Below are positions 25,043 through 43,533 of a stretch of 64,000 nucleotides of DNA, in pieces; within the stretch, counting starts at the first letter, position 1, and each line of letters starts with the position of its first letter. The stretch is taken from positions 6,200,001-6,264,000 of the forward strand of contig NZ_CP034550.1 of the NCBI RefSeq assembly GCF_009498035.1. Direction: 5' to 3'. A program made the position numbers and the translations under genes. The notes beneath the pieces are model-generated. The model was not told where the DNA came from, made no database searches, and saw only the letters and a program-made list of their open reading frames with translations. This DNA comes from Saccharothrix syringae. Its GTDB lineage: Bacteria > Actinomycetota > Actinomycetes > Mycobacteriales > Pseudonocardiaceae.

Positions 25043-27301
25043 TCAGGTGGTCGCGGGACCCGAACCGGCCGGGCCGTCGAGTTCGTTGAGCTGTTGTTGG
25101 ACGCGGTCGGCGTCGGTGTGGCGTCCTTGTTCCCGGTACAGCTCCAGTGCCTCCCGCCACACGGTGCGGGCCTGCTCGTGCTGGCCGAGGGCGGCGTGGG
25201 GATGGCCCACGCCGTCGAGGGTGTCCGCGACCGTGTAGGCGTTGCCGAGGCCGCGGTTCAGGGTGAGGGCGTGGTGGTAGTGGTCGAGGGCCTGGTGGTG
25301 GTCGCCGGTGTGGTGCGCGATGTAGCCCAGGCTGTCCAGGGTGGCCGCCTCGCCTGTGGGGTTGTGGTGGTGTCGGTGCAGGGTGAGGGCGGCCTGGCAG
25401 TGCTCGCGGGCGGTGTCGAACCGGTCCAGGCGCGCGGCGTACCAGCCCACCGCGTTGAGCGCGCTGGCTTCCCACACTGGCTGATCGAGGGCGCGGAAGA
25501 AGGCGACGGCGTGGTGGGCGTGCTCCAGGGCCTGCCGGTCGTCCCCCCGTCGTCCCCAGGCGTACGCGAGCACCCGGTGGGCGTGGGCCTGTTCGTTGGG
25601 GTCGTGGTGGCGCAGGGCCAGGTCGAGGGCCTGCTCCAGGTGGGTGGTGGCCAGTTCGTGCAGGCCCAGCAGGGAGTAGGCGAGGCCGAGGTGCCGGTGG
25701 GTGCGGCGGTGGGTGGCGGGGTCGGGCAGGTGGTCGGCGGCGTCCAGTGCGGCCTGCCACGTGGTGACCTCGTCGTGCAGGTGTCCTCGCCGGTGGTGGA
25801 AGGTGGTCAGGTTCCAGGCGAGGTGCCAGACGGTGTGGTGGTGGCCGAGGGTGGCGGCGGTGCGTTGGGTGGCCAGCAGGGTGGCGTGCTCGGCGTCCAG
25901 CCAGGCCAGTGCTGCGGCGGTGTCGGGCAGCGGGTGCGGGTGCACGCCGGGCGCGGGCGGCTCGGGCCGCACGAGCGTGTCGTGGGGGGCCAGGAAGCGG
26001 TCGGCGGCGTGGGCGGTGTGCAGGTGGAAGTCCGCCACCCGGGTCAGGGCCGCTTCCCGCACGTGCTCGGGCAGGGTGGTGTGGGCGGTGTCCGCGGCGT
26101 AGGCGCGGACCAGGTCGTGCATCGCATACCGGCCGCCCGGCCGCCGCTCCAGCAGCGACGCCTCCTCCAGCGCCGTCAGCGCCCTACGGGCGGCCGTCTC
26201 GGCTAGCTGGGTGAGCGCGGCGACGGCGGACAGGGTGGTGTCGGGACCGGGCGTGATGCCGAGCAAGGCGAACAGGGTGCGCTGCTGTTCGGTGAGGTGG
26301 CGCAGCGACCAGGACAGGACGGTGGGCAGGCTGGCCTCGGGGTCGTCGGAGTCCAGGGCGTCCAGGCCGAGGTCGCGCAGGTCGGTGACGTGGTCGTCGA
26401 GCAGGTGGGGGTGGGTGCGGATGCGGGCGGCGATCAGGCCGAGGGCGAGCGGGAATCCCCCGCACAGGCCGACCAGCTCGGTGACCGCCGCCTGTGTGTC
26501 GATGGTGGCGGGGGTGTCGCCGAGGGCGGTGGTGAGCAGGGTGCGGGCCTCGGTGTCGGTGAGCACGTCGAGGTGGACGGGGCGGGCACCGTGTCGGGCG
26601 ACGAGGCCGCGCAGCCGGTCGCGGCTGGTGATCAGCACCGTGCAGGTGGCGCCTCCGGGTAGCAGGGGCTGGACCTGTTCGGCGGTGCGGGCGTTGTCGA
26701 GCAGGACGAGCAGGCGTTTGCCGGTGGTGTGGGTGCGGTAGAGCCCGACCCGGGCGTCCAGGTCGGGGGGTTGGCGGTCGCGGTCGATGCCGAGGGCGGC
26801 CAGGAAGTCGCCCAGCACGTCGACGGGGTGGCGGGGGTCGCCGGGGCTGAAGCCGCGCAGGTCCACCGCGAGGTGGCCGTCGGGGAAGCGGTGCAGGTTG
26901 CGGTGGGCCCAGGTCTGGGCCAGCCAGGTCTTGCCGATGCCGCCGGTCCCGCCGATCGCGGAGATCACCGCCGTGCCACCGACTCCCCCGATGTCGTGCC
27001 CGACCGGCGAACCGGTGAGGGCGCGGTCGAGCGCGGCGAGCTGGTCGGCGCGGCCGACGAACCCCACCGGCCGCGGGCCGAGCTGCCGCGGAGTGGGCGT
27101 GGGCGGCCGGGGCGGCGGGTGCACGTGCAGGCCGCCGGTCACGTTGCCCACCGCGGTGCCACCGGTGCCAGCGGTGACACCGCCGTGCACCTGCTGGCCG
27201 GTCGTGCCCATTCCGGAAGGCCAGCTGGTGGGGGTGCTGCCGGTGTCGGGTTGGGCGGGGTCGGGCGCCGACGCGGTATGCCCGCGGTCCGTGTCGGCTA
27301 C
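25043..27301 (-). CDS. NB-ARC-TPR STAND ATPase, module copy 1
   Basis: Up to 752 residues. A Gly/Thr-rich leader (QQVHGGVTAGTGGTAVGN) is followed by the NB-ARC core: Walker A GGTGGIGKT at residues 117-125, Walker B-like LLVLLDNA, sensor TCTVLITSRDRL, GLPL-like GGFPLALGL, and the MHDLVRAYA winged-helix motif. A TPR array fills residues 480-745. STAND proteins of this type oligomerise on a signal and trigger an effector. No canonical start exists at the head of the frame: the first codon after the upstream TAG overlap is GTA. Translation may begin by frameshift from the cyclase-like gene or at ATG 27211. It is paralogous to 40107-42356 and 32956-35193. Confidence 0.85.
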   Translation of the reverse strand, partial: VADTDRGHTASAPDPAQPDTGSTPTSWPSGMGTTGQQVHGGVTAGTGGTAVGNVTGGLHVHPPPRPPTPTPRQLGPRPVGFVGRADQLAALDRALTGSPVGHDIGGVGGTAVISAIGGTGGIGKTWLAQTWAHRNLHRFPDGHLAVDLRGFSPGDPRHPVDVLGDFLAALGIDRDRQPPDLDARVGLYRTHTTGKRLLVLLDNARTAEQVQPLLPGGATCTVLITSRDRLRGLVARHGARPVHLDVLTDTEARTLLTTALGDTPATIDTQAAVTELVGLCGGFPLALGLIAARIRTHPHLLDDHVTDLRDLGLDALDSDDPEASLPTVLSWSLRHLTEQQRTLFALLGITPGPDTTLSAVAALTQLAETAARRALTALEEASLLERRPGGRYAMHDLVRAYAADTAHTTLPEHVREAALTRVADFHLHTAHAADRFLAPHDTLVRPEPPAPGVHPHPLPDTAAALAWLDAEHATLLATQRTAATLGHHHTVWHLAWNLTTFHHRRGHLHDEVTTWQAALDAADHLPDPATHRRTHRHLGLAYSLLGLHELATTHLEQALDLALRHHDPNEQAHAHRVLAYAWGRRGDDRQALEHAHHAVAFFRALDQPVWEASALNAVGWYAARLDRFDTAREHCQAALTLHRHHHNPTGEAATLDSLGYIAHHTGDHHQALDHYHHALTLNRGLGNAYTVADTLDGVGHPHAALGQHEQARTVWREALELYREQGRHTDADRVQQQLNELDGPAGSGPATT

Positions 27302-28137
27302 CGGGGGCCCTCCGGTCCGCCCGGCGGTGGTGCGCCGAAGGTGAGGTGATCGCCGGTGGCGGCGCCGATGGTGATGCCCGTTCCGCTGCCGTGCACGCCG
27401 CCGGTGATGGCCACGGCACGAGGCCCGGAGACGCCCGTCACCCCCGCGTCGTCGGTGGCGGGCGCGGAAGGGGCCGCTTGGCCGCCCGAGGCGGGGTCGG
27501 GCGGCTCGGAATCCGCCGGTTGCCGGTCGAGGACGGCGGGGTCGGGTGGGAAGGGGTGGTCGGGCAGCGCGATCCAGGCCGGCTCCCGGAACTCCTTCGT
27601 ACTGGCCTGGACCGGCCGGAACGTGGCAGGGTCCAGGGTGGCGCAGTGCCGGACGACCTCGTCGAACACCACCCGGGACACGATCATCGCCAACACGCCG
27701 GGCGAGTCGGCCAGGGCCTTCTTCAACGGCGGCGCGTCGACCAGGCGGAACGCGGCGGTCAGCGAGCTGGAGGTGACCCCGTGCTCGTCGAAGGCGACCT
27801 CGACCGCGTGCACCGCCAACCGCAGCCGCACCCGCGCCGCGCCGGGGCTGGTGGTGTTGTGCCCGCGCACCGCCCGCGCCAACGCCTCGGGCAGCACCTC
27901 CACCAACGGCGCCTTCGGAAACTCCGGCGGGACCAGCACGAACAGGCCGTCGCCCCGGTCCTCGTGGTGACAGGCATCCCACGGCACCCCCGCCGCCGCC
28001 AACGCCTGACCGACCACCTCGTACAGGCCCGCGCGGGTGCCCTGTTGGTGGCGCAGCGTCCGGTCGGGGGCGCTGAAGCGTTCCACGTCGACCAGGACCA
28101 TCGTGCGGTGGACCGCGTGCCGACCCGTACCCGCCAT
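27298..28137 (-). CDS. Nucleotidyl-cyclase-like protein, module copy 1
   Basis: 279 residues from ATG with a G-rich site five bases upstream. The N-terminal 190 residues resemble a class III cyclase or GGDEF-like palm: HRTMVLVDVERFSAPDR (first metal Asp), CHHEDRGDGLFVLVP, RLRLAVHAVEVAFDEHGVTS, FRLVDAPPLKKAL, ending WIALPDHP. The usual second-metal and base-contact residues are not clearly present, so activity is uncertain. The tail is disordered and ends in a VHGSGTGITIGAATGDH stretch like the leader of the next gene. Such proteins commonly precede NB-ARC ATPases in actinomycetes. It overlaps the ATPase frame at CCCCCGGTAG. Confidence 0.75.
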   Translation of the reverse strand: MAGTGRHAVHRTMVLVDVERFSAPDRTLRHQQGTRAGLYEVVGQALAAAGVPWDACHHEDRGDGLFVLVPPEFPKAPLVEVLPEALARAVRGHNTTSPGAARVRLRLAVHAVEVAFDEHGVTSSSLTAAFRLVDAPPLKKALADSPGVLAMIVSRVVFDEVVRHCATLDPATFRPVQASTKEFREPAWIALPDHPFPPDPAVLDRQPADSEPPDPASGGQAAPSAPATDDAGVTGVSGPRAVAITGGVHGSGTGITIGAATGDHLTFGAPPPGGPEGPR

Positions 28138-28154
28138 GCCGACCCCCTGAGGGC

Positions 28155-28188
28155 AGAACCGCGTGGTGCGCCGATGAACCACGGTTCT
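28155..28188 (-). promoter_or_regulatory. Leader hairpin upstream of the cyclase-like gene, copy 1
   Basis: AGAACCG...CGGTTCT pairs over 11 bp with a two-base bulge, 17 bases upstream of the start codon. The identical hairpin occurs at 43227-43260 before the second module copy. It could affect translation or be a binding site. The rest of 28138-28562 has no supported gene; a GTCATATGAC palindrome lies just beyond at about 28213. Confidence 0.45.
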
Positions 28189-28562
28189 ACCGACACGCGT
28201 GGGCGGCGTCCGCGTCATATGACGCACCCGTCGCCCGTTCGGCCGCACGAGACCACCCGACCGGGCGACATCGCCACGACGACCCGCGTCCACCCCGGAC
28301 CACGGTGCGGCCCCGCCGGCCTGGTGGCCGGGCCACCGCACCGCCGGTGCCCGCGCCCGGTCCGGCTCCGTCGACCGGTCCTTCGACCCCGCGCCGGCGG
28401 TCCCGCACGGCGAGGACGTCGTGCTGTGGCTGTGGCCCGAACGGGCACGGCGCCCGCCGGCCCGGACGAACCGTCCTTCCGCACCACAGGCCCCGGGGGT
28501 GCCGGGGGTGTTCGGTGCCGGCACCGCGTGTGTGGCCGGCGGCATGATGCTCCGGGCGCGGT

Positions 28563-29671
28563 TCAGCCGGTCAGGCCGAGCCAGCCCGCCATCTCGGTCA
28601 GCTCGGTGTTGGAGCGGTGGTGCCGGCTGACCAGGACCGCGGCGGTGGAGCGGACCATCGGGTGCAGCCGGGTCTGCTGTGGTGCGATGCTCCGCGCGGT
28701 GCCCAGCGCGGTCAGGCTTGCCGCGCGGTCGCCGACGAGCAGGTGGGCGCGGGCCAGGTCGATGTAGTGGTGCCCGCGGCGGGTGCGGGGCATCGTCCGA
28801 ACCGGTGTCCAGGACTCGGCGGCGGTCAGGGCGGCGGGGCCGTCGCCGAGTTCGACGTGCGCGGCCACCTCGTGGCTGGTGCTGTTCGCCGGTCCGAACG
28901 TCAGCCCGTGGTGCACCCGGTCGCCGGGCAGGCGTGCGGCCAGCTCGCGCGCGGCACGCAGGTGCCGGTCGGTGGTGTCGGTGTCGTGGGCGCGGGAGGC
29001 GAGGGTGACCGCGCGCAGGTGCAGGCTGCCCTGGACGACCAGCGCCGCGACGGCCGGACGTCGCCCGCGCAGTTCGCCGTCCAGCTCGGCGGTGGCCGCC
29101 TCGACCAGCCGCAGGCCGTGCTCGTAGTCCCCGGCGGTCTGGAAGCCCTGCACCCGTGCCCACTGCGCGAGCGCACCGGCGAGCGGATCGCCGGTGCGGG
29201 CGGCCGCGCGGGCAAGTTTATGTTCGGTGGCCTCGGCCAGATCCGGATAGCCCAGCCGGTGCAGCAGGCTGTGGGTGACGTAGTAGACGCTGGTCAGCAG
29301 CCGGTACACCGACGGCCGGGGGCCGCATCACCGCGACGACCTCGGATTCCAGCTCGGCGGGCGGGCGCGGGGCCATCTCGGCGGGCAGGTCGTAGTGGCG
29401 CAGCACCGTGCGCAGGGCGTCGACCGCGCGGTGGGCGGGCTGGTCGTGGTGGTGCCCAGTGTAGGGCTGACCGTTGATCGTCTCGACGGTGCTGGACAAC
29501 GCGCGCGCCGCGGCGGCGATGACGGCGTGGGTGGGGGACGCGTTCCCCACGCTCGACCTTGTCCAGCAAGCTCATGGAGAAGTGCATGCGTTCGGCGAGT
29601 TGGTGCTTGGTCAGTCCCTCGGCCACGCGCAGGGACCGGATGACCTCGCCCGGACTAGTCTCCCGCGGCAT
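28563..29671 (-). pseudogene. XRE-family regulator broken by two one-base insertions
   Basis: Three frames join into one protein. ATG 29671 gives EVIRSLRVAEGLTKHQLAER (helix-turn-helix) to LDKVERG. The next frame gives NASPTHAVIAAAARALSSTV to VVAVMRP. The last gives SVYRLLTSVYYVTHSLLHRL to the stop at 28563. Removing one G from GGGG near 29548 and one C from CCCCC near 29323 restores about 369 residues. The C-terminal part is a TPR-like helical domain of the type found in actinobacterial XRE regulators. It diverges from the radical SAM gene, which it probably regulated. The breaks could be assembly errors. Confidence 0.75.
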
Positions 29672-29853
29672 CGACGACCTCCCGTACCGGCGGCCGTGCA
29701 GCCGGGCCGCTTGTGTGTCTTCTGTGTGCGTCTACCGTCCCTGCTCTGCCTAGCGTGGCCCGTGACTGTTCCGCACCACAACCCCGAGCGGCACCGGGCG
29801 GGCCCGGACGGCCGACCGGCCGCCGCTCGACACGACTCGGGAGGAGCACCCCC

Positions 29854-30693
29854 ATGACCACGGTCGAAACCACGACGAAGCCGAAGCTGTCGTTCCTGGC
29901 CCTGTACCTGACCGACAAGTGCCAGCAGCGGTGCACGCACTGCGCCACCGGCTCCTCACCGGAGGGCACCCACGGCACCATGACCACCGCGGACTGGAAG
30001 CGGGTCCTGGACCAGGCCGCCGAACTGTGGGTGCGGCGCGTGCAGTTCATCGGCGGCGAGCCGATGCTCCACCCCGGGCTGGCCGAGCTGGTCGGCCACG
30101 CCCTGGGGCACGCGCTGGAGGTGGAGGTCTTCTCCAACCTGGTGTGGGTGCCCGAGGCGCTGTGGCCGATCCTGTCCCAACCCGGGGTGTCGCTGGCGAC
30201 CAGCTACTACAGCGACCGGCCCGAGCAGCACGCCGGGATCACCGGCGTCGACACCCTCCCGCGGATCCGGGCCACCATCGCCAGGGCCACCGGGCTGGGG
30301 ATTCCGCTGCGCGCCGGCGTCATCGACCTCGGCGTGGGCCAGCGCTTCGAGCAGGCCACGCGCAACCTCGTCGACCTCGGGGTCCCCTCGATCGGTCACG
30401 ACCGGGTCCGCGCTCTCGGCCGCGCCGCCCCCTGTACCACCGGCGGGAGCAACGCGGCCGAGCTGTGCGGCCGTTGCGGGGACGGGCAGGCCACGATCGC
30501 CCCCGACGGGCAGGTCCGCCCCTGCCTGTTCGTCACGTGGGCCACAGCGGGGAACGTGCGCGAGCGCGGCCTGGGCGAGGTCGTCGCGGCCATGCCCGGG
30601 GTGCGCGCCGAGCTGATCGCCCAGGGCATGCCCACTACCCTGGCCGGCAACTGCCAGCCTGATGGGAACTGCTATCCCTACAACGACCGCTAG
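29854..30693 (+). CDS. Radical SAM enzyme with C-terminal cysteine cluster
   Basis: 279 residues; ATG with GGGAGGAG upstream. The motif CQQRCTHC (Cys23, 27, 30) is the CX3CX2C radical SAM signature binding a [4Fe-4S] cluster, and IGGEPMLHP is the SAM-binding GGEP motif. C-terminal cysteines (LCGRCGDG, RPCLF, NCQPDGNCYPY) resemble a shortened SPASM/auxiliary cluster domain, as in enzymes that modify peptides or sugars. No obvious precursor peptide gene lies beside it. It is followed after 27 bp by a kinase-like gene, probably in one operon. Confidence 0.88.
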   Translation: MTTVETTTKPKLSFLALYLTDKCQQRCTHCATGSSPEGTHGTMTTADWKRVLDQAAELWVRRVQFIGGEPMLHPGLAELVGHALGHALEVEVFSNLVWVPEALWPILSQPGVSLATSYYSDRPEQHAGITGVDTLPRIRATIARATGLGIPLRAGVIDLGVGQRFEQATRNLVDLGVPSIGHDRVRALGRAAPCTTGGSNAAELCGRCGDGQATIAPDGQVRPCLFVTWATAGNVRERGLGEVVAAMPGVRAELIAQGMPTTLAGNCQPDGNCYPYNDR

Positions 30694-30720
30694 AACGACC
30701 AGCAGACGAGGTGGTGCGCG

Positions 30721-31845: not shown

Positions 31846-32298
31846 GTGATGATTTCGTCGTTGAGCCGTCCGCTGGGACACACCCGACCAGGGGGTGGAA
31901 GCGTGATCGGTGAACGGCCGCACCGCGGACTGCTGGGCCGCCTGTCGGAGCGCGCGGTGAACGCGCTGCTCGACTCGGGCGGGGAGGCGGCGTACGAGCC
32001 GGGGCAGGTGCTGCTGCGCACGGGCGACGACGGCACGCACGTCGTGCTGGTGCTCACCGGCGCGGTCAAGGTCCAGGCCGACGACGAGCTCACCCCAGCG
32101 CTGCTGGGCGTGCAGTCCGCCGGCGACCTGGTGGGCGAGATGGCCGTCCTGGACGGCGGACCCCGGTCGGCCACCGTGGTGACCTGTGGCCACGTCACCG
32201 CGCGGTTGATCTCCCGCCGCCAACTCCAGGTCCTGCTCCAGGAGCACCTCGAGCTGCTGGTCGCGGTGGCCGTGTCCACCGCCGAGCGGATCCGCTGA
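31846..32298 (+). CDS. Stand-alone cyclic-nucleotide-binding domain protein
   Basis: About 150 residues (GTG 31846, ATG 31849 or GTG near 31903). The Crp-type beta-barrel is clear: YEPGQVLLRTGDDGTHVVLV, then LTGAVKVQ. The phosphate-binding cassette GEMAVLDGGPRSATV has the Glu and Arg that contact a cyclic nucleotide. It stops at the hinge (STAERIR) where Crp/Fnr proteins continue into a helix-turn-helix. No downstream frame supplies one, so it is either a single-domain sensor or a truncated regulator. It lies between the two cyclase-like modules and upstream of a STAND ATPase. Confidence 0.78.
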   Translation: MMISSLSRPLGHTRPGGGSVIGERPHRGLLGRLSERAVNALLDSGGEAAYEPGQVLLRTGDDGTHVVLVLTGAVKVQADDELTPALLGVQSAGDLVGEMAVLDGGPRSATVVTCGHVTARLISRRQLQVLLQEHLELLVAVAVSTAERIR

Positions 32299-32955: not shown

Positions 32956-35193
32956 GTGAAGACTCCCAAACCGGAACAGCCCTCCGGCCCCGCACAAGTC
33001 CGCAACACCATGCCGGGAACTGCGGATGTGGTGTTGCAGGCCGGTGTGGTGCACGGCGACGTGTCGCTGGGCGCCGATCCCCTGCCGCCCTGGTCGGTGG
33101 TGCCGCGTCAACTGCCCGCCGGGCCGGGTCTGTTCGCCGGGCGCGCCGAGCAACTGCGCACGCTGGACTGTGCTCTGACCGCCGCCGCGTCGCATGATCC
33201 GGGCACGGCCACGCCCGATTCTGATTCCGATGTCGCATCCGCCGCCTCGGCGATGGGTGCGACGGTGCTGGTGTCGGCGATCGGTGGGGCCGGCGGCATC
33301 GGCAAGACCTGGCTCGCGCTGGCCTGGGCTCACCTCCGGCTGGAGCGGTTCCCCGACGGGCAACTGTTCGTGGACTTGCACGGCTTCAGCTCCGCAGGCG
33401 AGCCGGTGGAACCGGCGGTGGCGGTGCGCGGGTTTCTCGACGCTCTGGGGGTCAACCCCGACCGCATCCCGACCGACCTCGACGCGCAGGCAGCGTTGTA
33501 CCGCAGCCTGGTCGCCGACAAGCGGATGCTGGTCGTGCTGGACAACGCCGCCACCTCCGAGCAGGTCGTGCCGCTGCTGCCCGGCTCGCCGACCTGCACC
33601 GTGCTGGTCACCGGCCGCCACCGGCTGGCCTCCCTGATCGACCGACATGGCGCCCGGCACCTGTCCCTCGGCGTCCTGGACCGCGACGAGGCCCGCGCGC
33701 TGCTGACCGCCCGCCTGCCCGACCGCGTGGCCGCCGACTCCGACGCGGTGGACGAACTGGTGAGCCTGTGCGGGGGCCACCCGCTGGCCCTGGCGATCAC
33801 CGCCCGCACCGCCGACGCCCGACCCGCCGTCCCGTTGGCCGAGGTCGCCGCAGAGCTGCGCGAACTCGGCTTGGAAGTGCTCGACCACGACACCGACGCC
33901 GCCGCCAGCCTGCCCACTGTGCTGTCGTGGTCCCTGCGCTATCTCACCGACCAGCACCGCACGTTGTTCGCGTTGCTCGGGATCGCCCCTGGTCCGGACA
34001 CCACGACGGCCGCCACCGCCGCCCTCGCCGACCTGTCCCTGACCCCAGCGCGCAGGGCGCTGACAGCGTTGGAGGACGCATCGCTGCTGGAACGGCGGGC
34101 GGGCGGACGCTACGCGATGCACGACCTGGTCCGCGCCTACGCCGCCACCACCGCCCAGGGTCTGCCCGAGCACGTGCGGAAGGCGGCCCTGGTGCGGGTG
34201 GGGGACTTCCACCTGCACACCGCCTTTACCGCTGACCGCCTCCTGGATCCCCACAGCCCGTCGCTGCCGCCCGCCCCGCCCGCACCCGGCGTCCGCCCGC
34301 ATCCGCTACCCGACCCCGCCTCGGCGATGGTCTGGCTGGAGGCCGAGTACGCCACCCTGCTTGCCACCCAACGCACCGCCGCCACCCTGGGACGCCACCA
34401 AGTCGTCCTGCACATGGCCTGGGCACTGAAGACCTTCCACCTCCGGCGGGGACACCTGCGTGACGCGCTCGCGGTGTGGCGGGCCGCGTTGGACGCCGCG
34501 GTCCACCTACCCGACCCCACCGCCCTCGGGCGCGCCCACCGGACTCTCGGGCGCGTCTATGCCGCCCTCTTCCTGCACAAGGACGCCATCCGGCACATGG
34601 ACCGGGCGCTGGATCTGGCCACGCGCCACCACGATCACACTGAGCAGGCACACACCCACCGGGCACTCGCTCACGCCTGGAAGCAGAAAGGTCGCGACCG
34701 GCTCGCCCTGGATCACGCCCGGAACGCCCTGGACCTCTACCGCACCCTCGACCAGCCGACGTGGGAAGCCGACGCGCTCAATCTGGTGGGATGGTTCACC
34801 GCACGGCTCGGTGACGTCACCGCCGCCCGCGACCACTGCCACACCGCCCTCGCCCTGTTCCGGCACCATCACAGGCCCGAAGGCGAGGCGACAGCCTTGG
34901 ACAGCCTCGCCTTCATCGCCCACCGCACCGGCGACCACCACCAAGCCCTCGACTACTATCACCAGGCACTCGTCCTGCACCGCCGCCACGCCAACATTCA
35001 AGAGGTCGCGAACACCCTCGACGGCACGGGCCATCCCCTCGCCGCCCTCGGCCACCATGACCACGCCCGCGAGGTATGGCGGGAGGCCCTTCAGCTCTAT
35101 CAGGACCAAGGCCGAGACGAAGAGGCCGCGCGCGTCCAACAGGAACTCGACAACCTCGACCACACCCGCTGCCCCGCAACTGACAGTCGGTGA
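32956..35193 (+). CDS. NB-ARC-TPR STAND ATPase
   Basis: 745 residues from GTG, with GGGAGG nine bases upstream. The leader carries VVLQAGVVHGDVSLGA (residues 25-40), a motif shared with the other STAND proteins here. NB-ARC features: Walker A GAGGIGKT at 111-118, MLVVLDNAATSEQV, CTVLVTGRHRL, GGHPLALAI, YAMHDLVRAYA. TPR units run from about residue 460 to the end. It is clearly paralogous to the ATPases at 25043-27301 and 40107-42356 but more diverged, and has no cyclase-like partner gene. A cyclic-nucleotide-binding protein is the nearest upstream gene on the same strand. Confidence 0.88.
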   Translation: MKTPKPEQPSGPAQVRNTMPGTADVVLQAGVVHGDVSLGADPLPPWSVVPRQLPAGPGLFAGRAEQLRTLDCALTAAASHDPGTATPDSDSDVASAASAMGATVLVSAIGGAGGIGKTWLALAWAHLRLERFPDGQLFVDLHGFSSAGEPVEPAVAVRGFLDALGVNPDRIPTDLDAQAALYRSLVADKRMLVVLDNAATSEQVVPLLPGSPTCTVLVTGRHRLASLIDRHGARHLSLGVLDRDEARALLTARLPDRVAADSDAVDELVSLCGGHPLALAITARTADARPAVPLAEVAAELRELGLEVLDHDTDAAASLPTVLSWSLRYLTDQHRTLFALLGIAPGPDTTTAATAALADLSLTPARRALTALEDASLLERRAGGRYAMHDLVRAYAATTAQGLPEHVRKAALVRVGDFHLHTAFTADRLLDPHSPSLPPAPPAPGVRPHPLPDPASAMVWLEAEYATLLATQRTAATLGRHQVVLHMAWALKTFHLRRGHLRDALAVWRAALDAAVHLPDPTALGRAHRTLGRVYAALFLHKDAIRHMDRALDLATRHHDHTEQAHTHRALAHAWKQKGRDRLALDHARNALDLYRTLDQPTWEADALNLVGWFTARLGDVTAARDHCHTALALFRHHHRPEGEATALDSLAFIAHRTGDHHQALDYYHQALVLHRRHANIQEVANTLDGTGHPLAALGHHDHAREVWREALQLYQDQGRDEEAARVQQELDNLDHTRCPATDSR

Positions 35194-35338: not shown

Positions 35339-37147
35339 GTGGACCAGGAGCGGATCCCGCCGAGGCTGCCGGTGGACAAGTTGACCGAGCTGGAGCGGAC
35401 GGTGCTCGACGCCGCCCGCCTCGGCGAGCCGGCAGGGCTGTTGGACCGCCGGGTAGACGTGGAGGAGCTGGCGGTCACCGACGACCCCGGCCTGTGCGTG
35501 CGGGCGGAGCTGATCCGGGACCTGCTGCTGGGCCGTCACGGCGAACTCGACCCCCGCGGCGTGCTCATCGCGGGTGTGCGGGTGCTCGGGCTGCTGGACC
35601 TGGACCGGGTCACAGCGGTCACCGGGCTGGCCCTGGTGGGCAGCGCGCTGCCCGACGGGTTCACCTGCCGTCACGCCAGCCTGCCCGAACTCGCCCTAGA
35701 CGAATCCCTGGTGTCGGGGGTGTTCGCGGTCGGCCTGCTCATCGAGGGCGGCCTGTTCCTGCGGGGTGCTGTCGTACGCTCCGACGGCGAAGCGGGTGGG
35801 GTACGTCTGTCCGGCGCCCACATCGGCGGGGCGGCCGTGTTCGACGGCGGGGAGTTGGTCAACAGCAGCGGACCCGCTCTCTCCGCCGAGCACCTGCGCA
35901 CCGAGGGCAGCTTGTTCCTGTGCGCCACTGTCGCGCGCGGCAACGGCGAAGCGGGTGCGGTACGCCTGCACAGCGCCCACATCGGCGGACAGGCCGTGTT
36001 CGACGGTGCGGGGTTGGTCAACGACAGCGGACCCGCCCTCAACGCCGAGTACCTGCGCACCGACGGCTCCCTGTCCCTGCGCACCACTGTCGCGCGCGGC
36101 AACGGCAAGTGGGGTGCGGTACGCCTGCACAGCGCCCGCATCGGCGGACAGGCCGTGTTCGACGGTGCGGGGTTGGTCAACGACAGCGGACCCGCCCTCA
36201 ACGCCGAGTACCTGCGCACCGACGGCTCCCTGTCCTTGTGCACCCACGTCGACGACGACGGGCATCGGCGCAACGCCGTCATGCGCGGCAGAGGTGATGC
36301 GGGTGCGGTGAGCCTGCACAGTGCCCACATCGGGGGACAGGCCGTGTTCGAGGAGGCGGTGATCGCCGACAGCGGCGATGGGCCGCTGATCGTCCTGGCC
36401 GAAGCGCAGGTGGACGGGCTGCTGTTCCTGCCCGCCACGGTGGTGTGTCCGCAGGGGCGGGTGGAGGCCGGGGGCCGGTCCTGCGTGGCCAGCGCCAGCC
36501 GGACGGTCGTGGTGCGGGGTCTGGTGTTCCCACGTCTGGGGGGTGTGTCGTGGCGGGAGTGGCTGCACCTGCTGGTCCACCACACCCCGGAGTACCTGCC
36601 CCAGCCGTACCAGCAGTTGGCCGCCGTGGAGCGGGCCGCCGGGCACGAGGGCAACGCCCGCCAGGTGCTCATCGTCCAGCAGGAGGACCTGCGGCGCCGC
36701 GCGCCCGAGGCGCTGGGCGGCCGACTCGCGCGCCTGCGGTACCGGCTGTGGGGGTGGCTGGGCCGCTACGGCTACCGCGCGCACCGTCTGGTGCTCGCCC
36801 TCGCCGCGGTCCTGGCCCTGGCCGGCGGCACCGGCTACACCGCCGGCCAGATCACCACCGGCCCCGGCACCGACCATCACACCGCCGAACGCGTCCGGCC
36901 CCCGCTGCCCGCCGACACCACGATCCCGGCCGGGACACCGTGTTCCACCGTCGAGTTGATCGGCCTGGGCATCGACCGCGGCCTGCCGCTGGGGGTCACC
37001 GGGGTGCGCGCCCGCTGCGACCTCGACACCTCCACCACCGCCGGTCAGGTGTTCACCATCGTGCTGTGGGTGTTGCAGGCACTGCTGTGGGCGCTGGCCA
37101 CCCTCACCGTCGCCGCCTACACCAGCCTGATCCGCAAACCCGCCTGA
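35339..37147 (+). CDS. Beta-helix repeat protein with C-terminal membrane segments
   Basis: 602 residues from GTG. Residues 100-390 form an imperfect repeat domain with units such as GAVRLHSAHIGGQAVFDGAG, typical of pentapeptide-like right-handed beta-helices. Two hydrophobic segments follow (LVLALAAVLALAGGTGYTAG near 487-506 and VFTIVLWVLQALLWALATLT near 571-590) with a Cys-containing loop between. Related proteins are often called membrane-associated oxidoreductases without evidence. It starts about 145 bp after the STAND gene on the same strand, so it could be its partner. The central units are nearly identical at DNA level. Confidence 0.75.
   Translation: MDQERIPPRLPVDKLTELERTVLDAARLGEPAGLLDRRVDVEELAVTDDPGLCVRAELIRDLLLGRHGELDPRGVLIAGVRVLGLLDLDRVTAVTGLALVGSALPDGFTCRHASLPELALDESLVSGVFAVGLLIEGGLFLRGAVVRSDGEAGGVRLSGAHIGGAAVFDGGELVNSSGPALSAEHLRTEGSLFLCATVARGNGEAGAVRLHSAHIGGQAVFDGAGLVNDSGPALNAEYLRTDGSLSLRTTVARGNGKWGAVRLHSARIGGQAVFDGAGLVNDSGPALNAEYLRTDGSLSLCTHVDDDGHRRNAVMRGRGDAGAVSLHSAHIGGQAVFEEAVIADSGDGPLIVLAEAQVDGLLFLPATVVCPQGRVEAGGRSCVASASRTVVVRGLVFPRLGGVSWREWLHLLVHHTPEYLPQPYQQLAAVERAAGHEGNARQVLIVQQEDLRRRAPEALGGRLARLRYRLWGWLGRYGYRAHRLVLALAAVLALAGGTGYTAGQITTGPGTDHHTAERVRPPLPADTTIPAGTPCSTVELIGLGIDRGLPLGVTGVRARCDLDTSTTAGQVFTIVLWVLQALLWALATLTVAAYTSLIRKPA
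35935..36240 (+). repeat. 159-bp in-frame tandem repeat
   Basis: Almost two full 159-bp units (53 codons) are near-identical, for example 35978-36067 versus 36137-36226, with more diverged units on either side. They lie inside the beta-helix coding sequence and keep the frame. This implies recent repeat expansion. Confidence 0.8.
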
Positions 37148-37175
37148 ACCGACGCCACATCCGGGATCCCCGCCC

Positions 37176-37274: not shown

Positions 37275-37320
37275 CCCTCCAGGAAATTTGTCATACTGAT
37301 ATGACAAATTTTCTGGAGGG
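37275..37320. promoter_or_regulatory. 21-bp inverted repeat with 4-base loop
   Basis: CCCTCCAGGAAATTTGTCAT plus A pairs with its complement across the loop CTGA, with one mismatch. It is strikingly AT-rich for this genome and includes the ATG (37301) of the following recombinase-like relic inside its right arm. It could be an operator, a mobile-element end or a recombination site. Confidence 0.6.
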
Positions 37321-37837
37321 TGCTGTAACCTCTTCTCCGACCCTGGTCGTGCCGGATCTGGATGCCCTGTCCGGCCGGGAAAAGCCCACGCTGACGCAGA
37401 CCCGGGCGTACTGGGCGTTCGTGCGCGACCTGGACGGCCTGCTGCCCCACGGGTCGCTGCGCGTCTTCGTCGACCCCCACGAGGCGTCCTGCTCCCACCC
37501 AAGCTCGCCCGACTCATCGAGCAGCAGATCAGCCAACCCGACCACTTGGCGGTGCTCGACCCCGTCCTCGAACCCAGGATCCGCTACCTGCTTGCCGGGA
37601 CGGCGCCCCGGCAAGCCGCGCTCCGTCGCCGGACTCAACCGTCTGCTCAACCAGCACGGCTTCCCGGTCACCAGCGCCCGCAACACGGCGATGATCGAAG
37701 CGGTCGCCGAACTGCCGCCCACCATCATCAGCGACCTGTTCGGCGTCCACTCCAAGACCGCCCATGCTTGGGCCAACTACGCCCAGGACAGCTGGGCCGA
37801 CTACCTCGCCGCCCGCGCGACGCCACCTCACCACTGA
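37301..37837 (+). pseudogene. Relic of an integrase/recombinase-associated gene
   Basis: ATG 37301 reads MTNFLEGAV ... TLTQTRAYWAFVRDLDGLLP. The frame is then lost: the continuation KLARLIEQQISQPDHLAVLD lies in another frame (about 37500-37600). It returns for SVAGLNRLLNQHGFPVTSAR and FGVHSKTAHAWANYAQDSWA at the C-terminus. This last part matches my memory of large actinobacterial proteins linked to tyrosine recombinases. Two frame changes and a large internal deletion mark it as a dead remnant. Confidence 0.6.
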
Positions 37838-37871
37838 AGCACTGCGCTGCCGAAAGCCGCGTGTCCTGCGA

Positions 37872-38435
37872 CTACGAACCGGTCAACCACGCCAGAGCCG
37901 GCTGGGAGATCCAGTTCACCACCAAGCCCAGAACGAAGGCAGCCACCAGCGATCCTCCGAACTGCATCCACGTCAAGCGGGACTGCCGCGCGAACTGCCG
38001 CCCGACCAGGCCCTCGATTGCCTTCGCCTGCTCGGCGTTCAACGACGCCAACTGCTTATACCGTTCCGCATCCGCCTGATGCTGCTCCAATAACCGGATC
38101 CGGGCAGCCAGCTCGTCGCCGAGCTCGTCAAGCAGCTGCGCGGCCGCAGACAGGTGATCCCGAGCTTGATCGGCACGGTCCGAGATTCCCCGCTCTTCAG
38201 CCCCTGGCACCGTCAAGGCGGAACGCGAGATCAACCTCGCCAGGGTGATAGCGAGGAACGCGACCAACGTCCCCGCCACCGCCCAGGCACTACTGGACAA
38301 GGCAGGCACATCGCCTACGTTCCTTGTCACGGCGTTGACCACCACCGACACCGCCACCGAAACCACGACCACGGTGATCGACGCCGTTATGACCCGCACG
38401 GTCCTGCCACGCTGAAGGCGCTTCTCGTCAGCCAT
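37872..38435 (-). CDS. Small membrane protein with coiled coil
   Basis: 187 residues; ATG at 38435 with a weak upstream site. Three hydrophobic segments: VRVITASITVVVVSVAVSVV (13-32), a second near 46-62 (AWAVAGTLVAFLAITLARLI), and one near the C-terminus (GGSLVAAFVLGLVVNWI). Between the second and third is a charged helical stretch (about 75-145) likely to form a coiled coil. Function unknown. Its start codon abuts the possible upstream start of the divergent gene, so the two probably share a promoter region. Confidence 0.7.
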   Translation of the reverse strand: MADEKRLQRGRTVRVITASITVVVVSVAVSVVVNAVTRNVGDVPALSSSAWAVAGTLVAFLAITLARLISRSALTVPGAEERGISDRADQARDHLSAAAQLLDELGDELAARIRLLEQHQADAERYKQLASLNAEQAKAIEGLVGRQFARQSRLTWMQFGGSLVAAFVLGLVVNWISQPALAWLTGS

Positions 38436-38499
38436 GACGCAACAGCATGACGGCGTCGCAAGCCGAGCAATCATCAAGGTGTCCCCCTGCTGGGGCTGT

Positions 38500-38538
38500 G
38501 GCATTGCGCAGGTTCCAAACACTGCCCGGTTGCCAGTC
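38500..38538. repeat. Dispersed ~39-bp repeat, copy C (inverted)
   Basis: Inverse orientation to the copies at 16-53 and 3332-3370; identical to copy A at about 32 of 37 positions. It ends immediately before the GTG of the following + strand gene, so in all three places the element points toward a gene start in the same relative orientation. Confidence 0.6.
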
Positions 38539-38823
38539 GTGCTGGAGATCAGCCGCCGCGACCAAGGTGGCTGGCCCTACCGCCACGGTGAGGTCGTCCG
38601 CGTCACCTGGACCACCGGCCACGACCCCGCCTGGGACGCCGCCGAGGTCCCCTGCGGCCGCGACCTCGGCGACGGCCGCGTCTCCGGCCTGTCCTACATC
38701 CTGCACGCCGGGCGCCACCGCGAGGACAATCCGGACTGGGAGGGCCACGACGGCAAGCCCGAACATCTCGTCCGCTACGTCGCCGTGGTGCGCCCCGCCA
38801 CCCCCGACGAAGCCGCCGGGTAG
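38539..38823 (+). CDS. Short 'VRPAT' family protein
   Basis: 94 residues from GTG 38539. A longer start at ATG 38434 would overlap the divergent start codon by two bases and read through the repeat copy. It contains GEVVRVTWTTGHDPAWDAAE and ends VAVVRPATPDEAAG. This matches one half of the proteins at 4341-5042 and 10013-10903, so it may be a minimal or truncated member. Function unknown. Confidence 0.6.
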   Translation: MLEISRRDQGGWPYRHGEVVRVTWTTGHDPAWDAAEVPCGRDLGDGRVSGLSYILHAGRHREDNPDWEGHDGKPEHLVRYVAVVRPATPDEAAG

Positions 38824-38974
38824 GCCGACGGCCGCGCCGCCGAGGCGGGGCGTCGACTACCGTCACGCCGGACGGCGCGCCCTGCGGCACGCGTGCCGGG
38901 CCGTCGACCGGCGGGCGCATCCCGAGGCAGCCCGACCGGCTCCGGTCACCGACGACGAAGGAGAGGGCGGCGGG

Positions 38975-40091
38975 GTGAGCCTGACCGGGCAGCTCTACAA
39001 GGGCAGGCTGAGCCGGTGGTGCGAGAAGATGTTCGTCGGCACCGACACTGTGGTCAAGCAGGTCCGCTCGTCCGTAGCCGGGATCGCGTCGGTGACGCCC
39101 GCGGGCCGGGTCGACGACGTGCACTGGGCCGACGTCGGGGGCGCGTTCGGGCAGCGACTGGCCGACCTGGTCGACCCGGCCCCGCCCTACGGCGCGATGC
39201 TCGGCATGATCCACACCTGGTGGATGACCTGGTCGCAGGCCCACGCCCAGGCCGCCGCCTACCCCAGCCACGCCGAACTGCCCGCCCCGCAGCGGCGGCG
39301 GGCGCTGTCGCTGCGCCGCACCCCAGACGGATGGATGGATCTCGGGGCCACCACCGACTGCGGGCCGGTCGACCGCGAGGCCGAGGCGGTGATGGTGGAA
39401 CTGCTGGAACGCACCCGCACCTACCAGGTTGAGCACGCACCGCACGGCCGGTGGGGCACCTCGCCCGGCGTCGAGGCCGGGTTGGCCCGGTCGGCATGGG
39501 TGCTGGCCGCGTGCGAGGGCATTCACCGCTCCGGGAAGATCGACCCGCGGCTCACCTCCGTGCTGGCAGGCGGTGGCGGTGTCCGGGAACTGCGCGCCCT
39601 GGCCGACGAGTCGGTGGTGGCCGAACTGGTCGCCCTGGCCTCCCCGCGCCCGCGAGCAAGGGCTGGTCGAGAAGCTGCGCGGCACCGCCGACACCCTCGG
39701 CCACCGCGACGTGCACACGCCGCTGGGAGTGGCCGCGCCGGTGCTGGTCCCCGACTGGGCGGACGGGGACCTGCTGGTCGGCCCGGCCGAGGCGACCATG
39801 CTGGTCGACGTCAAGACCGTCGTCACCCTCGCCGACCCGCGTCGGGTGGCCGGATGGTGTTGGCAGATCCTGGCCTACACCTGGTTGGACAGCCTGGATC
39901 TGCACCGGATCAGGTCGGTGGGTCTCTACCTCGCCCGCCACGGCGTCCTGGTCGCCTGGAGCGCCCGCACACTGGCCGGCGCGCTGCTGGGCGACAACAA
40001 CCCCGGCCGCGTCGACCAAGCCCGCCGCGAGTTTGTCGAGGTCGCCACCCAGGTCATCCGCGGTAAGGGTGGTGTGTTACCGATTGCGTAG
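38975..40091 (+). CDS. PD-(D/E)XK nuclease-like protein, interrupted by a one-base insertion
   Basis: GTG 38975, with GGAGAGG upstream, opens a frame giving LTGQLYKGRLSRWCEKMFVG and on to VAELVALAS. The continuation AREQGLVEKLRGTADTLG to the stop at 40091 is in another frame. Deleting one C of CCCC near 39645 restores about 371 residues. In the C-terminal part WADGDLLVG followed by MLVDVKTVV fits the D...DxK core of the PD-(D/E)XK nuclease fold. The N-terminal 200 residues are helical and not recognised. It may be a nuclease of a conflict system or a phage/plasmid-type recombination enzyme. Confidence 0.65.
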
Positions 40092-40106
40092 AAGCGGGAT
40101 CGACCT

Positions 40107-42356
40107 TCAGGTGTCGTCAAGGTCGTCGAGTTGGCGTTGGACGCGTTGGGCGTCGGCGGTACGGCCTTGGTCCCGGTACAGCTTCAGCGCCTCCCGCCAC
40201 ACCGCGCGGGCCCGCTCGTGCTGACCGAGAGCGACGTAGGAGTGGCCTGCGTGGTCAAAAACTTCTGCGGCCAGATAGGTGTAGGCGAGGGTGCGGAATA
40301 TGATCATAGCCTCCTCATAGTGGTCGACGGCTTGCTGGTGATCACCGACGTGGTGAGCGATGTAGCCGAGGCTGTCTAGGGTTTGCGCCTCTCCAGCCGG
40401 GTTGTGATGGTGTCGGTGCAGAGTAAGGGCGGCGTGACAATGGATGCGGGCGGAGTCGTACTCGCCTAGGCGCGCGGCGTACCAGCCCACTGCGTTGAGC
40501 GCGTGGGCTTCCCGCGCTGGTTGGTCGAGGCTGCGGTGGAGGTCGAGGGCGTGCCGAGCGTGGTTTAGGGCCCGTCGGTCATCTCCCGTCCTTTCCCAGG
40601 CAAGCGCGAGTTGATGGTGGGCGTGTGCCTGTTCAGTGGAGTCGTGGTGCTGTACGGCGAGGTTGAGTGCCTGCTCCAGGTGTTCGGTGGCCTGCTCGTG
40701 CAGGCCCAGTCGGGAGCAAGCACGGCCGAAAAGCCGGTGGCCGCGGATGAGAGTGGTGGGGTCGGATAGGTGTTCGGCAGCATCCAACGCGGCCTGCCAC
40801 ATGGCGAACTGGTCGTGCCGGTGCCCCCGCCGGCGGAGGAAGGTGTCCAGGTTCCAGGCGAAGTTCCAGACGACGTGATGGCGGCCGAGGGTGACAGCGG
40901 CGCGTTGGGCAGCCAGCAGGGTGGCATGTTCGGCGTCCAGCCACGCGAGTGCGGTCACGGCGTCGGGCAGTGGGTGCGGGCGGACGTCGGGCGCGGGCGG
41001 GTCAGGTGGCAGGAGCGGGCGGTGGGGGTCCAGGAGGCGGTCGGCAGTGTGGGTGGTGTGCAGGTGGAAGTCCACCACCCGAGTCAAGGCGGCCTCGCAC
41101 ATGTGGTCGGGCAGGTGGTGGGCGGTGGTGGCGGCGTAGGCGCGGACCAGGTCGTGCATCGCGTACCGGCCGCCGGGCCGCCGCTCCAGTAGCGATGCCT
41201 CTTCTAGCACCGCCAGCGCCCTGCGGGCATCCGTCTCGGACAGGCCGGTGAGGGCGACCACGGCGGGCAGGGTGGTGTCGGGTCCGGGCGCGATGCCGAG
41301 CAGGGCGAACAGGGTGCGCTGCTGTTCGGTGAGGTGGCGCAGCGACCAGGACAGGACGGTGGGCAGGCTGGCTTCGGGGTCGTCGGAGTCCAGGGCGTCC
41401 AGGCCGAGCTCGCGCAGGTCGGCGACCAGGTCGTCGAGCAGGTCGGGGTGGGTGCGGATGCGGGCGGCGATCAGGCCGAGGGCGAGCGGGAATCCCCCGC
41501 ACAGGCTGATCAGTTCGGTGACCGCCGCGTGCGTGTCCGGGGTGGTGGGGGTGTCGCCGAGGGCGGTGGTGAGCAGGGCACGGGCCTCGGTGTCGGTGAG
41601 CACGTCGAGGTGGACGGGGCGGGCACCGTGTCGGGCGACGAGGCCGCGCAGCCGCTTGCGGCTGGTGATCAGCACCGTGCAGGTGGCGCCTCCGGGTAGC
41701 AGGGGCTGGACCTGTTCGGCGGTGGCGGCGTTGTCGAGCAGGACGAGCAGGCGCCGGCCGGTGGTGTGGGTGCGGTAGAGCCCGACCCGGGCGTCCAGGT
41801 CGGGGGGTTGGCGGTCGCGGTCGACGCCGAGGGCGGCCAGGAAGTCGCCCAGCACGTCGACGGGGTGGCGGGGATCGCCGGGGCTGAAGCCGCGCAGGTC
41901 CACCGCGAGGTGGCCGTCGGGGAAGCGGTGCAGGTTGCGGTGGGCCCAGGTCTGGGCCAGCCAGGTCTTGCCGATGCCGCCGGTCCCGCCGATCGCGGAG
42001 ATCACCGCCGTGCCACCGACTCCCCCGATGTCGTGCCCGACCGGCGAACCGGTGAGGGCGCGGTCGAGCGCGGCGAGCTGGTCGGCGCGGCCGACGAACC
42101 CCGCCGGTGGCGGGCCGAGCTGCCGCGGGGCGGGCGTGGGCGGCCGGGGCGGCGGCGGGTGCACGTGCAGGCCGCCGGTCAGGTTGCCCACCGCGGTGCC
42201 GCCGGTGTCCGCGGTGACACCACCGTGCACCTGCTGAGCGGCCGCGCCCGTTGCGGTGGACGGGCCGGTAACAGCGCCGTCGGTGGTAGTGCTGTCGGTG
42301 GTGGGGGCGGGGTCGGGCGCCGACGGGGTGTGCCCGGTGTCGTCCTCGTCGGCTAC
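40107..42356 (-). CDS. NB-ARC-TPR STAND ATPase, module copy 2
   Basis: Up to 749 residues. The leader (QQVHGGVTADTGGTAVGN), Walker A GGTGGIGKT (123-131), TCTVLITSRKRL, GGFPLALGL and YAMHDLVRAYA all match copy 1 at 25043-27301. The TPR part is more diverged than the NB-ARC part. The frame again has no canonical start at its head: GTA overlaps the upstream TAG, and the first shared GTG is at 42230. The pre-GTG stretch differs from copy 1 by an in-frame length change, which suggests it is translated. It converges on the PD-(D/E)XK gene with 15 bp between stops. Confidence 0.85.
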   Translation of the reverse strand, partial: VADEDDTGHTPSAPDPAPTTDSTTTDGAVTGPSTATGAAAQQVHGGVTADTGGTAVGNLTGGLHVHPPPPRPPTPAPRQLGPPPAGFVGRADQLAALDRALTGSPVGHDIGGVGGTAVISAIGGTGGIGKTWLAQTWAHRNLHRFPDGHLAVDLRGFSPGDPRHPVDVLGDFLAALGVDRDRQPPDLDARVGLYRTHTTGRRLLVLLDNAATAEQVQPLLPGGATCTVLITSRKRLRGLVARHGARPVHLDVLTDTEARALLTTALGDTPTTPDTHAAVTELISLCGGFPLALGLIAARIRTHPDLLDDLVADLRELGLDALDSDDPEASLPTVLSWSLRHLTEQQRTLFALLGIAPGPDTTLPAVVALTGLSETDARRALAVLEEASLLERRPGGRYAMHDLVRAYAATTAHHLPDHMCEAALTRVVDFHLHTTHTADRLLDPHRPLLPPDPPAPDVRPHPLPDAVTALAWLDAEHATLLAAQRAAVTLGRHHVVWNFAWNLDTFLRRRGHRHDQFAMWQAALDAAEHLSDPTTLIRGHRLFGRACSRLGLHEQATEHLEQALNLAVQHHDSTEQAHAHHQLALAWERTGDDRRALNHARHALDLHRSLDQPAREAHALNAVGWYAARLGEYDSARIHCHAALTLHRHHHNPAGEAQTLDSLGYIAHHVGDHQQAVDHYEEAMIIFRTLAYTYLAAEVFDHAGHSYVALGQHERARAVWREALKLYRDQGRTADAQRVQRQLDDLDDT

Positions 42357-43210
42357 CGGGGGTCCTGCGGCGGCGGCCCCGCGGACGGGCCCGGTGGGGG
42401 TGATGAGTGGCCGATGGTGACGTGGTCGCCGGTGGCCGCGCCGATGGTGATGCCCGCCCCGGCGCCGTGCACGCCGCCGGCGATGTGCACCCCGCGTGTC
42501 CCGGTACCGCCGTCGGACGCCCGATCGCGGTCGGTGCCGGTCGCCGGGCGGACGTCCGGCGGGGTGGTCGGTGTCGTGGGGTCGAGCGGATGCCCGGGCA
42601 GGCCGGGGGCGGCGGGCGGGTGAGGTTGGTCGGGCAGGGCGATCCACGCCGTGTCGTGGAACTGTTTGACCTCGACCTCGACCCGGCGGAACAGGCCGGG
42701 GTCCAGGGTGGCGCAGTGCCGCACGACGTCCCGGTGGATCAGGTCGGAGACGATCATTGCAACCACGCCCGGCGAGTTCTTCAGCGCGGTTTTGAGGGCG
42801 GGGGCGTCGAGCAGCCGGAACGCGTCGGTCAGCGCGGTGGAGGTCACGCCGTGCCCGTCGAAGGCGACCTCCCCGGCGTGCACCGCCAACCGCAACCGCA
42901 CCCGCGCCGCGCCGGGGCTGGTGGTGTTGTGCCCGCGCACCGCCCGCACCAACGCCTCGGGCAACACCTCCACCAACGGCGCCTTCGGAAACTCCGGCGG
43001 AACCAGCACGACCACGCTGTCACCGCGGTCCTCGTGATAGCAGGCGTCCCACGGCACCCCCGCCGCCGCCAACGCCTGACCGACCACCTCGTACAGGCCC
43101 GCGCGGGTGCCCTGTTGGTGGCGCAGCGTCCGGTCGAGGACGCCGAAGCCCTCCACGTCGACCAGGACCATCGTCCGGTGGACCGCGTCGTGCCGACCCG
43201 TACCCGCCAT
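42353..43210 (-). CDS. Nucleotidyl-cyclase-like protein, module copy 2
   Basis: 285 residues from ATG. Same layout as 27298-28137: TMVLVDVEGFGVLDR, YHEDRGDSVVVLVP (GDS in place of GDG), RLRLAVHAGEVAFDGHGVTS, FRLLDAPALKTAL, WIALPDQP. A long disordered linker follows, then GGVHGAGAGITIGAATGDHV. The G-to-S change and other differences show divergence since duplication, with constraint kept on the core. The stop TAG overlaps the start region of the ATPase frame. Confidence 0.75.
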   Translation of the reverse strand: MAGTGRHDAVHRTMVLVDVEGFGVLDRTLRHQQGTRAGLYEVVGQALAAAGVPWDACYHEDRGDSVVVLVPPEFPKAPLVEVLPEALVRAVRGHNTTSPGAARVRLRLAVHAGEVAFDGHGVTSTALTDAFRLLDAPALKTALKNSPGVVAMIVSDLIHRDVVRHCATLDPGLFRRVEVEVKQFHDTAWIALPDQPHPPAAPGLPGHPLDPTTPTTPPDVRPATGTDRDRASDGGTGTRGVHIAGGVHGAGAGITIGAATGDHVTIGHSSPPPGPSAGPPPQDPR

Positions 43211-43226
43211 ACCGACCCCCAAGGGC

Positions 43227-43260
43227 AGAACCGCGTGGTGCGCCGATGAACCACGGTTCT
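43227..43260 (-). promoter_or_regulatory. Leader hairpin upstream of the cyclase-like gene, copy 2
   Basis: Identical to 28155-28188: AGAACCG...CGGTTCT with a two-base bulge, 17 bases before the ATG. Conservation between the copies fits either function or recent duplication. Confidence 0.4.
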
Positions 43261-43533
43261 ACCGACCCGCCTTGGCGGCGTCCGCGTCATACGACGCACC
43301 CGTCGCCCATCCGGCCGCACGAGACCACCCGACCGGGCGACACCACCACGACGACCCGCGCCCCCGGACCACGACGCGGCCCCGCCAGCCTGGTGGCAGG
43401 CCGCCGCACCGCCGGTGCCCACACCCGGTCCGGCTCCGCCAACCGGTCCTTCGACCCCGCACCGACGGGGGTTCGTCCGGCCCACCCCGCCCCCGACGCG
43501 GCAGGGCCGGGTCGCACGCGCACGGTGCCGCCG

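Follow-up and report, generated by a model that had tools for sequence, protein, structure and literature searches.

Cyclase-like proteins as candidate effectors of NLR-type receptors in a duplicated gene pair of Saccharothrix syringae

We analyzed a window of 64,000 nucleotides (the whole stretch examined, which lies in a single contig of 10.93 Mb) from the genome of Saccharothrix syringae that contains two copies of a minus-strand unit of two genes, the first encoding a cyclase-like protein of about 280 residues and the second an NB-ARC-TPR ATPase of the STAND class. With moderate confidence, we interpret each copy as an NLR-type receptor/effector module with a cyclase-like effector, the two proteins being joined by a motif relay between the effector end (motif R1) and the ATPase start (motif R2). 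Comparison of the protein sequences with those of relatives suggests that cyclase-like proteins serve as exchangeable outputs of immune-type receptors in these bacteria.

The duplicated pair and the cyclase-like family

Direct repeats 15,037-15,076 bases apart link 25075-28400 with 40115-43468, both on the minus strand, in agreement with a preliminary description of the window that had proposed two direct copies. Its pairing of a cyclase-like protein (open reading frames, or ORFs, at 27298-28137 and 42353-43210) with an NB-ARC-TPR ATPase (ending at 25043 and 40107) is likewise borne out. The features of the two copies are as follows.

27298-28137, minus strand: copy 1 putative cyclase-like effector, class III type, with C-terminal motif R1; metal-binding Asp and Arg kept, fold from the copy 2 homologue
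27334-27417, minus strand: copy 1 motif R1, effector tail
27298-27301, minus strand: copy 1 junction GTAG, effector stop TAG with the ATPase frame in the -1 phase
27118-27196, minus strand: copy 1 motif R2, ATPase N-terminus
25043-27301, minus strand: copy 1, frame of the NB-ARC-TPR ATPase taken from the effector stop onward; an in-frame ATG first occurs 89 bases past the stop
26240-27190, minus strand: low-divergence patch common to both copies, gene-conversion-like, limits approximate
42353-43210, minus strand: copy 2 putative cyclase-like effector, class III type, with motif R1; structure predicted
42410-42492, minus strand: copy 2 motif R1, approximate
42353-42356, minus strand: copy 2 junction GTAG
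42158-42236, minus strand: copy 2 motif R2, approximate
40107-42356, minus strand: copy 2, frame of the NB-ARC-TPR ATPase taken from the effector stop onward; an in-frame GTG first occurs 125 bases past the stop

The cyclase-like proteins of both copies yield no Pfam family above the cut-off. The predicted structure of the copy 2 protein matches solved class III cyclases (the cyclase homology domain fold), and through this homologue the cyclase fold surmised for the first gene of copy 1 holds up. Both metal-binding aspartates are present in both copies and are kept in 80 and 81 of the 81 relatives, respectively. In class III cyclases, an Arg and an Asn also act in the transition state; the Arg is found in all 81 relatives and in copy 1. 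A search of the S. syringae genome with PF00211 gave no match, the family having diverged beyond the reach of that model. The domain occurs there in 17 places, two of them broken (20 matches, some of which are pieces of one gene), and in 41 of 120 genomes of the bacterial family (E up to 1e-10), either alone or fused within one ORF to NB-ARC-TPR or NACHT-like ATPases. The 139 matches pooled from the window, its genome, the family and a scan of named genomes (80 of 121 confirmed loci kept) were sorted into 51 fused, 4 split, 82 alone and 2 open-ended; the sorting is mechanical, so that "alone" takes in long ORFs with a missed P-loop (for example, L066 and L101, L-numbers being labels of individual relative or paralogue loci), and some loci are entered twice (L105/L255 and L068/L110). 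The link between cyclase-like and STAND proteins, the recurrence of which had been raised as a check on the pairing, is found beyond the window as a direct fusion or a split pair. By eye, L115 and the second cyclase-like match of L108 carry a cyclase-like domain ahead of a SARP-like region and an NB-ARC domain in one ORF.

Among the alone-type proteins tested, three have EAD2 above the cut-off. Genes for proteins binding cyclic nucleotide monophosphates (cNMP) lie on the same strand near 13 of the 82 alone-type loci (L034, L035, L156, L159, L162, L163, L171, L172, L174, L176, L179, L181 and L183) and near none of the 51 fused loci, the range covered being 1.5 kb upstream and 2.5 kb downstream. 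Many of these 13 belong to Actinomadura and are related. These adjoining genes suggest that at least some members of the cyclase-like family make a cyclic nucleotide. The lone cNMP-binding gene of the window, 3.7 kb from copy 1 on the opposite strand, has at most a possible link to the copies, although its relatives are the genes found near those 13 alone-type loci.

Tail motifs and the exchange of effectors

In the split pairs, the effector ends in R1, resembling I.GGVHG.G.GITIGAATGDH, and the ATPase starts with R2, [IV]HG[GD][VL]...G..AVG. An R1 match was obtained in 49 of 390 genomes of the family (E up to 0.05); the 18 places that we read, those at E 1.9e-4 or better, comprise 16 split loci and 2 in-frame fusions. 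The same genomes gave 16 R2 matches, 14 of them at the R1 places read and none at copy 2 or L261-L263. The motif pattern found nothing in L264 and L265, where the R1 matches are weaker than E 1.9e-4, and across 396 genomes of the phylum the R1 profile matched only the S. syringae genome (at most 19 candidates scored per genome). Nor did the pattern match any of the 51 ORFs classed as fused; in the 24 of them that show a PRQL boundary, the linker is 10-56 residues long (median 18).

What stands ahead of this tail varies. Among the 16 split loci, which come from 14 genomes, eight have a cyclase-like effector and a ninth, L258, has only the C-terminal part of one in frame, whereas in L254 and L256, from two genomes, a TIR_2 domain above the cut-off occupies the slot of the cyclase. 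One minus-strand locus of L259 carries a SARP (BTAD) domain, above the cut-off, on the R1 tail, and a second has a short ORF without an assigned domain; in L261-L263, the slot holds a short protein in which two hydrophobic segments can be made out by eye. The two in-frame fusions are L259 plus, with a cyclase-like domain that has lost both metal residues, and L260 minus, which is SARP-like by eye. The former is a single chain at 11845-14994 with the cyclase-like domain, R1, R2 and NB-ARC in frame, both metal-binding aspartates being replaced (by eye). The replacement of the cyclase by TIR and SARP domains on the same tail strengthens the case for an effector role, and the TIR domain in the same slot is the strongest argument for the cyclase-like protein being an NLR effector.

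The similarity of R1 to R2, measured against shuffled tails, is significant in L261 (p 0.004), L262 (p 0.013) and L263 (p 0.002), and nominally so in L254, L256 and L259 minus (p 0.027-0.030). Other matched motifs are seen near cyclase-like genes in L111 (p 0.0005, Gly/Ala-rich) and, in the S. syringae genome itself, L032 (p 0.03), as well as in L132 beside an nSTAND1-like protein (by eye), with VYQAGGDQHI and VYQSGRDQHI (p 0.0005).

In the mechanism that we propose, the TPR part of the STAND ATPase would sense a trigger, and the NB-ARC core would oligomerize and thereby cluster its N-terminal R2. The clustered R2 would then recruit, or template in a beta-type manner, the similar R1 at the end of the cyclase-like protein. 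Because dimers are the working form of class III cyclases, gathering the cyclase domains could activate them, and a cyclic-nucleotide signal for defense, dormancy or regulation would result. We infer the oligomerization, the beta-type templating, the enzymatic activity, the trigger and the outcome as parts of this model.

Several observations weigh against the proposed relay to a cyclase effector. In the window copies taken alone, the similarity of R1 to R2 is not significant (p 0.30 and 0.26). The best ungapped alignment falls inside the motifs in 13 of the 16 loci and elsewhere in three, and it takes two registers, one in 8 loci and the other in 5. Combining eight divergent loci of our own choosing gives a p of about 1e-5, which is driven by L261-L263. 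The transition-state Asn is present in 34 of the 81 relatives and replaced in 47, and is Thr in both window copies. Finally, a SARP domain on the R1 tail fits a transcriptional role as well as it does a defense role.

The stop/-1 junction and rival readings

TAG is the effector stop in every one of the 16 split loci, with the ATPase frame continuing in the -1 phase; the same codon ends 13 of the 47 predicted genes of the window, two of them being the effectors of the copies. No ATG, GTG or TTG occurs in the ATPase frame within the first 55 bases after the stop in 15 of the 16, and in 11 of the 13 NB-ARC-type loci none occurs from 150 bases before to 76 bases after it, the exceptions being the first L259 minus locus (upstream starts) and L260 plus (GTG at +26). 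In L261-L263, the first in-frame start lies 56-74 bases past the stop. Among the 13 NB-ARC-type loci there are seven different stop-to-R2 distances, each of them 2 mod 3. By contrast, the partner in L132 has an ATG just after the stop, and that in L032 begins in a GTGA overlap. These counts retain L065, L253 and the first L259 minus locus (truncated ATPase frame), L105 (contig end) and L258 (C-terminal part of the cyclase).

The explanation that the effector and the ATPase are ordinary neighbors, with the ATPase starting just before R2 and the TAG/-1 arrangement inherited from an ancestor or an earlier fusion, has about an even chance of being correct. Most split loci have an ATG or GTG at R2 or a short way ahead of it, two in-frame fusions exist, and the overlap geometry is that of ordinary GTGA coupling, as in L032. 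The sequence just past the TAG also fits: among 12 loci, no coding signature was found there, the ratio of non-synonymous to synonymous differences (pN/pS) in the NB-ARC frame being 1.22 and third codon positions the least variable, which speaks against simple coding constraint. Past the TAG, the proportion of synonymous differences (pS) is nevertheless 0.136, lower than the 0.382 of the cyclase domain, which was measured in another set of 7 loci. Against ordinary neighborhood stand the single phase kept across seven stop-to-R2 lengths, the position of the first start inside R2 in the second L259 minus locus and in L263, and the lack of an evident ribosome-binding site at five of six candidate starts (upstream 18-20 bases, by eye).

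The oddity of the junction suggests recoding or an unusual coupling, although tests of a slippery site, of the codon pattern and of a hairpin gave frameshifting no support. Copy 1 has a canonical slippery heptamer, GGGCCCC, ahead of its stop; neither copy 2 nor the other loci shown have it, and no slippery heptamer is common to the loci. A hairpin past the TAG, with a 10-bp stem predicted in L105 and L256, is not supported as a frameshift stimulator: 91.5% of the stem cells pair, a level reached by 106 of 500 shuffles, and covariation does not exceed that of the shuffles (in the alignment, the rows for L065, L067 and L254 are offset by 1-3 bases and are without the last bases). Folding z-scores of the post-TAG sequence range from -0.3 to -2.4 in six of seven cases, with +0.74 in the seventh. 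It is conceivable, albeit unlikely, that the junction serves as programmed recoding or start-codon-less coupling that would yield mostly effector-R1 and, rarely, an effector-R1-R2-STAND fusion, the fusion acting as sensor and seed and the effector as an amplifiable, exchangeable substrate. If confirmed, a conserved stop with a locked -1 phase would be a new way to set the effector/receptor ratio.

A different role for the pair, that of an AfsR-type regulatory switch instead of a module for defense or cell death, in which SARP has been exchanged for a cyclase-like domain setting the cyclic-nucleotide level for development or secondary metabolism, is possible but rather unlikely. The best NCBIfam matches of the ATPases are AfsR and HaaT (317 and 282 bits for copy 1, against cut-offs of 1430 and 1125), SARP is found on the same R1 tail in L259 and in the single chains of L108 and L115 (by eye), and many ATPase paralogues in the genome have SARP-like N-termini (by eye). 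However, Pfam detects no DNA-binding domain in the window pairs, and TIR, a known immune effector, takes the same slot in two genomes.

A reading of the cyclase-like protein as having little or no catalytic activity left, and functioning as a nucleotide-binding adaptor or scaffold, is also doubtful. The replaced transition-state Asn and the absence of either metal Asp from the fused relative L259 plus (by eye) are compatible with such a role, and inactive cNMP cyclase domains have been reported in conflict systems (Kaur et al. 2020, PMC7159879, in the part drawn on here). This view is countered by the near invariance of the metal Asp residues and the Arg across the 81 relatives and by the cNMP-binding genes near 13 of the 82 alone-type relatives.

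The copies diverge unevenly, as had been proposed, with amino-acid identity of 94% in NB-ARC, 76% in the winged-helix part, 66% in the TPRs and 79% in the cyclase domain. The cause that the preliminary description put forward, diversification of the TPR sensors under selection with the core held, is highly improbable and we reject it: the TPRs are indeed the more diverged part of the ATPase, but silent sites are as uneven as amino acids, with pS of 0.04, 0.26 and 0.37 in NB-ARC, the winged-helix part and the TPRs, and differences at 2 of 186, 25 of 92 and 26 of 81 four-fold sites, respectively (51 of 173 downstream of NB-ARC together). Nor do the ratios of non-synonymous to synonymous divergence per domain (dN/dS 0.93 in NB-ARC and 0.48 in the TPRs) fit selection on the sensor. 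The sameness of NB-ARC is the mark of gene conversion or recombination of a patch, at about 27190-26240, and with it the argument for such selection falls away; the longest clean run spans 145 four-fold sites (permutation p 0.0002). A second, weaker low-divergence patch lies in the N-terminal half of the cyclase.

Other genes of the window and comparison with known systems

Between the copies lie the third ATPase and the lone cyclic-nucleotide-binding protein that had been assigned there; Pfam confirms both (NB-ARC/TPR and PF00027).

32956-35193, plus strand: third NB-ARC-TPR ATPase, no cyclase-like partner, with a different N-terminal motif, VVLQAGVVHGDVSLG, at 33025-33072
31846-32298, plus strand: lone cNMP-binding domain protein (PF00027, E 1.5e-17)

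Pfam finds NB-ARC and TPR in both paired ATPases and in the third (33265-35193), which is inverted relative to both copies; no partner is seen in the approximately 650 bases upstream of it. By eye, about a dozen NB-ARC paralogues in the genome (L195-L202, L204, L207, L208 and L211) have a similar, VVQAGVVHGDVHLH-like N-terminus, other paralogues being SARP-like, and the motif of the third ATPase looks like another BASS-type motif.

Next to copy 2, the gene at 44081-46798 encodes a protein of 905 residues that combines an Mrr_cat nuclease domain with an nSTAND1 ATPase domain. It lies in a stretch of low G+C content (0.55 compared to about 0.72) adjoined by a piece of a DDE superfamily transposase (47037-47513), is possibly an acquired defense gene and has no PADLOC match at E 0.001. 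A Radical SAM/SPASM protein (29713-30693) scores far under all curated NCBIfam cut-offs and shows local similarity to PADLOC viperin models (E 4.8e-9). The 602-residue protein at 35339-37147 contains tandem 159-base (53-residue) repeats as well as hydrophobic C-terminal segments, and has no match in Pfam or NCBIfam.

AfsR-type SARP-NB-ARC-TPR regulators are the nearest curated relatives of the window ATPases, which differ from them in the lack of a SARP domain and in scores far below the cut-off. PADLOC gave no match for the cyclase-like proteins and, for the ATPases, only generic TPR and one weak match. Unlike Pycsar, the pyrimidine cyclase antiphage systems, as far as the sources drawn on describe them, neither copy adjoins a cyclic-nucleotide receptor effector, the cNMP-binding protein of the window lying next to neither, and the cyclase pairs with a STAND ATPase.

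A close architectural parallel is with the bacterial amyloid-type NLR signalosomes with BASS motifs and BELL effectors (the work of Dyrka et al. 2020, from the account in PMC7889193), in which NLR and effector genes adjoin, carry similar motifs and have TIR among the reported effectors. As in those, a STAND ATPase gene adjoins an effector gene. A further, candidate parallel is the likeness of short motifs at the NLR N-terminus and the effector C-terminus, which is significant in L261-L263 and over the eight chosen loci combined but has p 0.30 and 0.26 in the window copies. In contrast to the BASS systems of that account, the window effector is cyclase-like rather than BELL, the R1/R2 motif family has no BASS1-10 assignment, and the parts of the PMC7889193 account used here say nothing of a TAG junction in the -1 phase. 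None of the main texts of three amyloid-motif papers uses the word "cyclase".

Tying a cyclase to a STAND switch is not in itself new because Kaur et al. (2020/2021; PMC7159879, PMC8195603) describe, in the parts drawn on here, cNMP cyclases as signaling components linked to NTPase switches through homotypic domains (EAD/iSTAND/VMAP), iSTAND2 being infrequently linked to a cNMP cyclase via shared EADs. The window pairs resemble these conflict systems in that a cyclase is tied to an NTPase switch and EAD2 occurs on relatives of the window protein; they differ in having short glycine-rich motifs and an NB-ARC-TPR ATPase, and Pfam detects no EAD in them at E 0.1. In the portions of this literature used here, we met no description of short-motif pairing with NB-ARC-TPR, of the effector exchange or of the junction, which is not to claim their absence from print. 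To ask how a single receptor can drive different effectors, the cyclase-like, TIR and SARP domains that share a tail offer natural constructs. If the reading favored here is right, bacterial NLR-type receptors that connect to their effectors through short matched motifs would have cyclic-nucleotide signaling as a further output, and motif-relay NLRs would come together with cNMP-cyclase conflict systems, both of them predicted immune designs.

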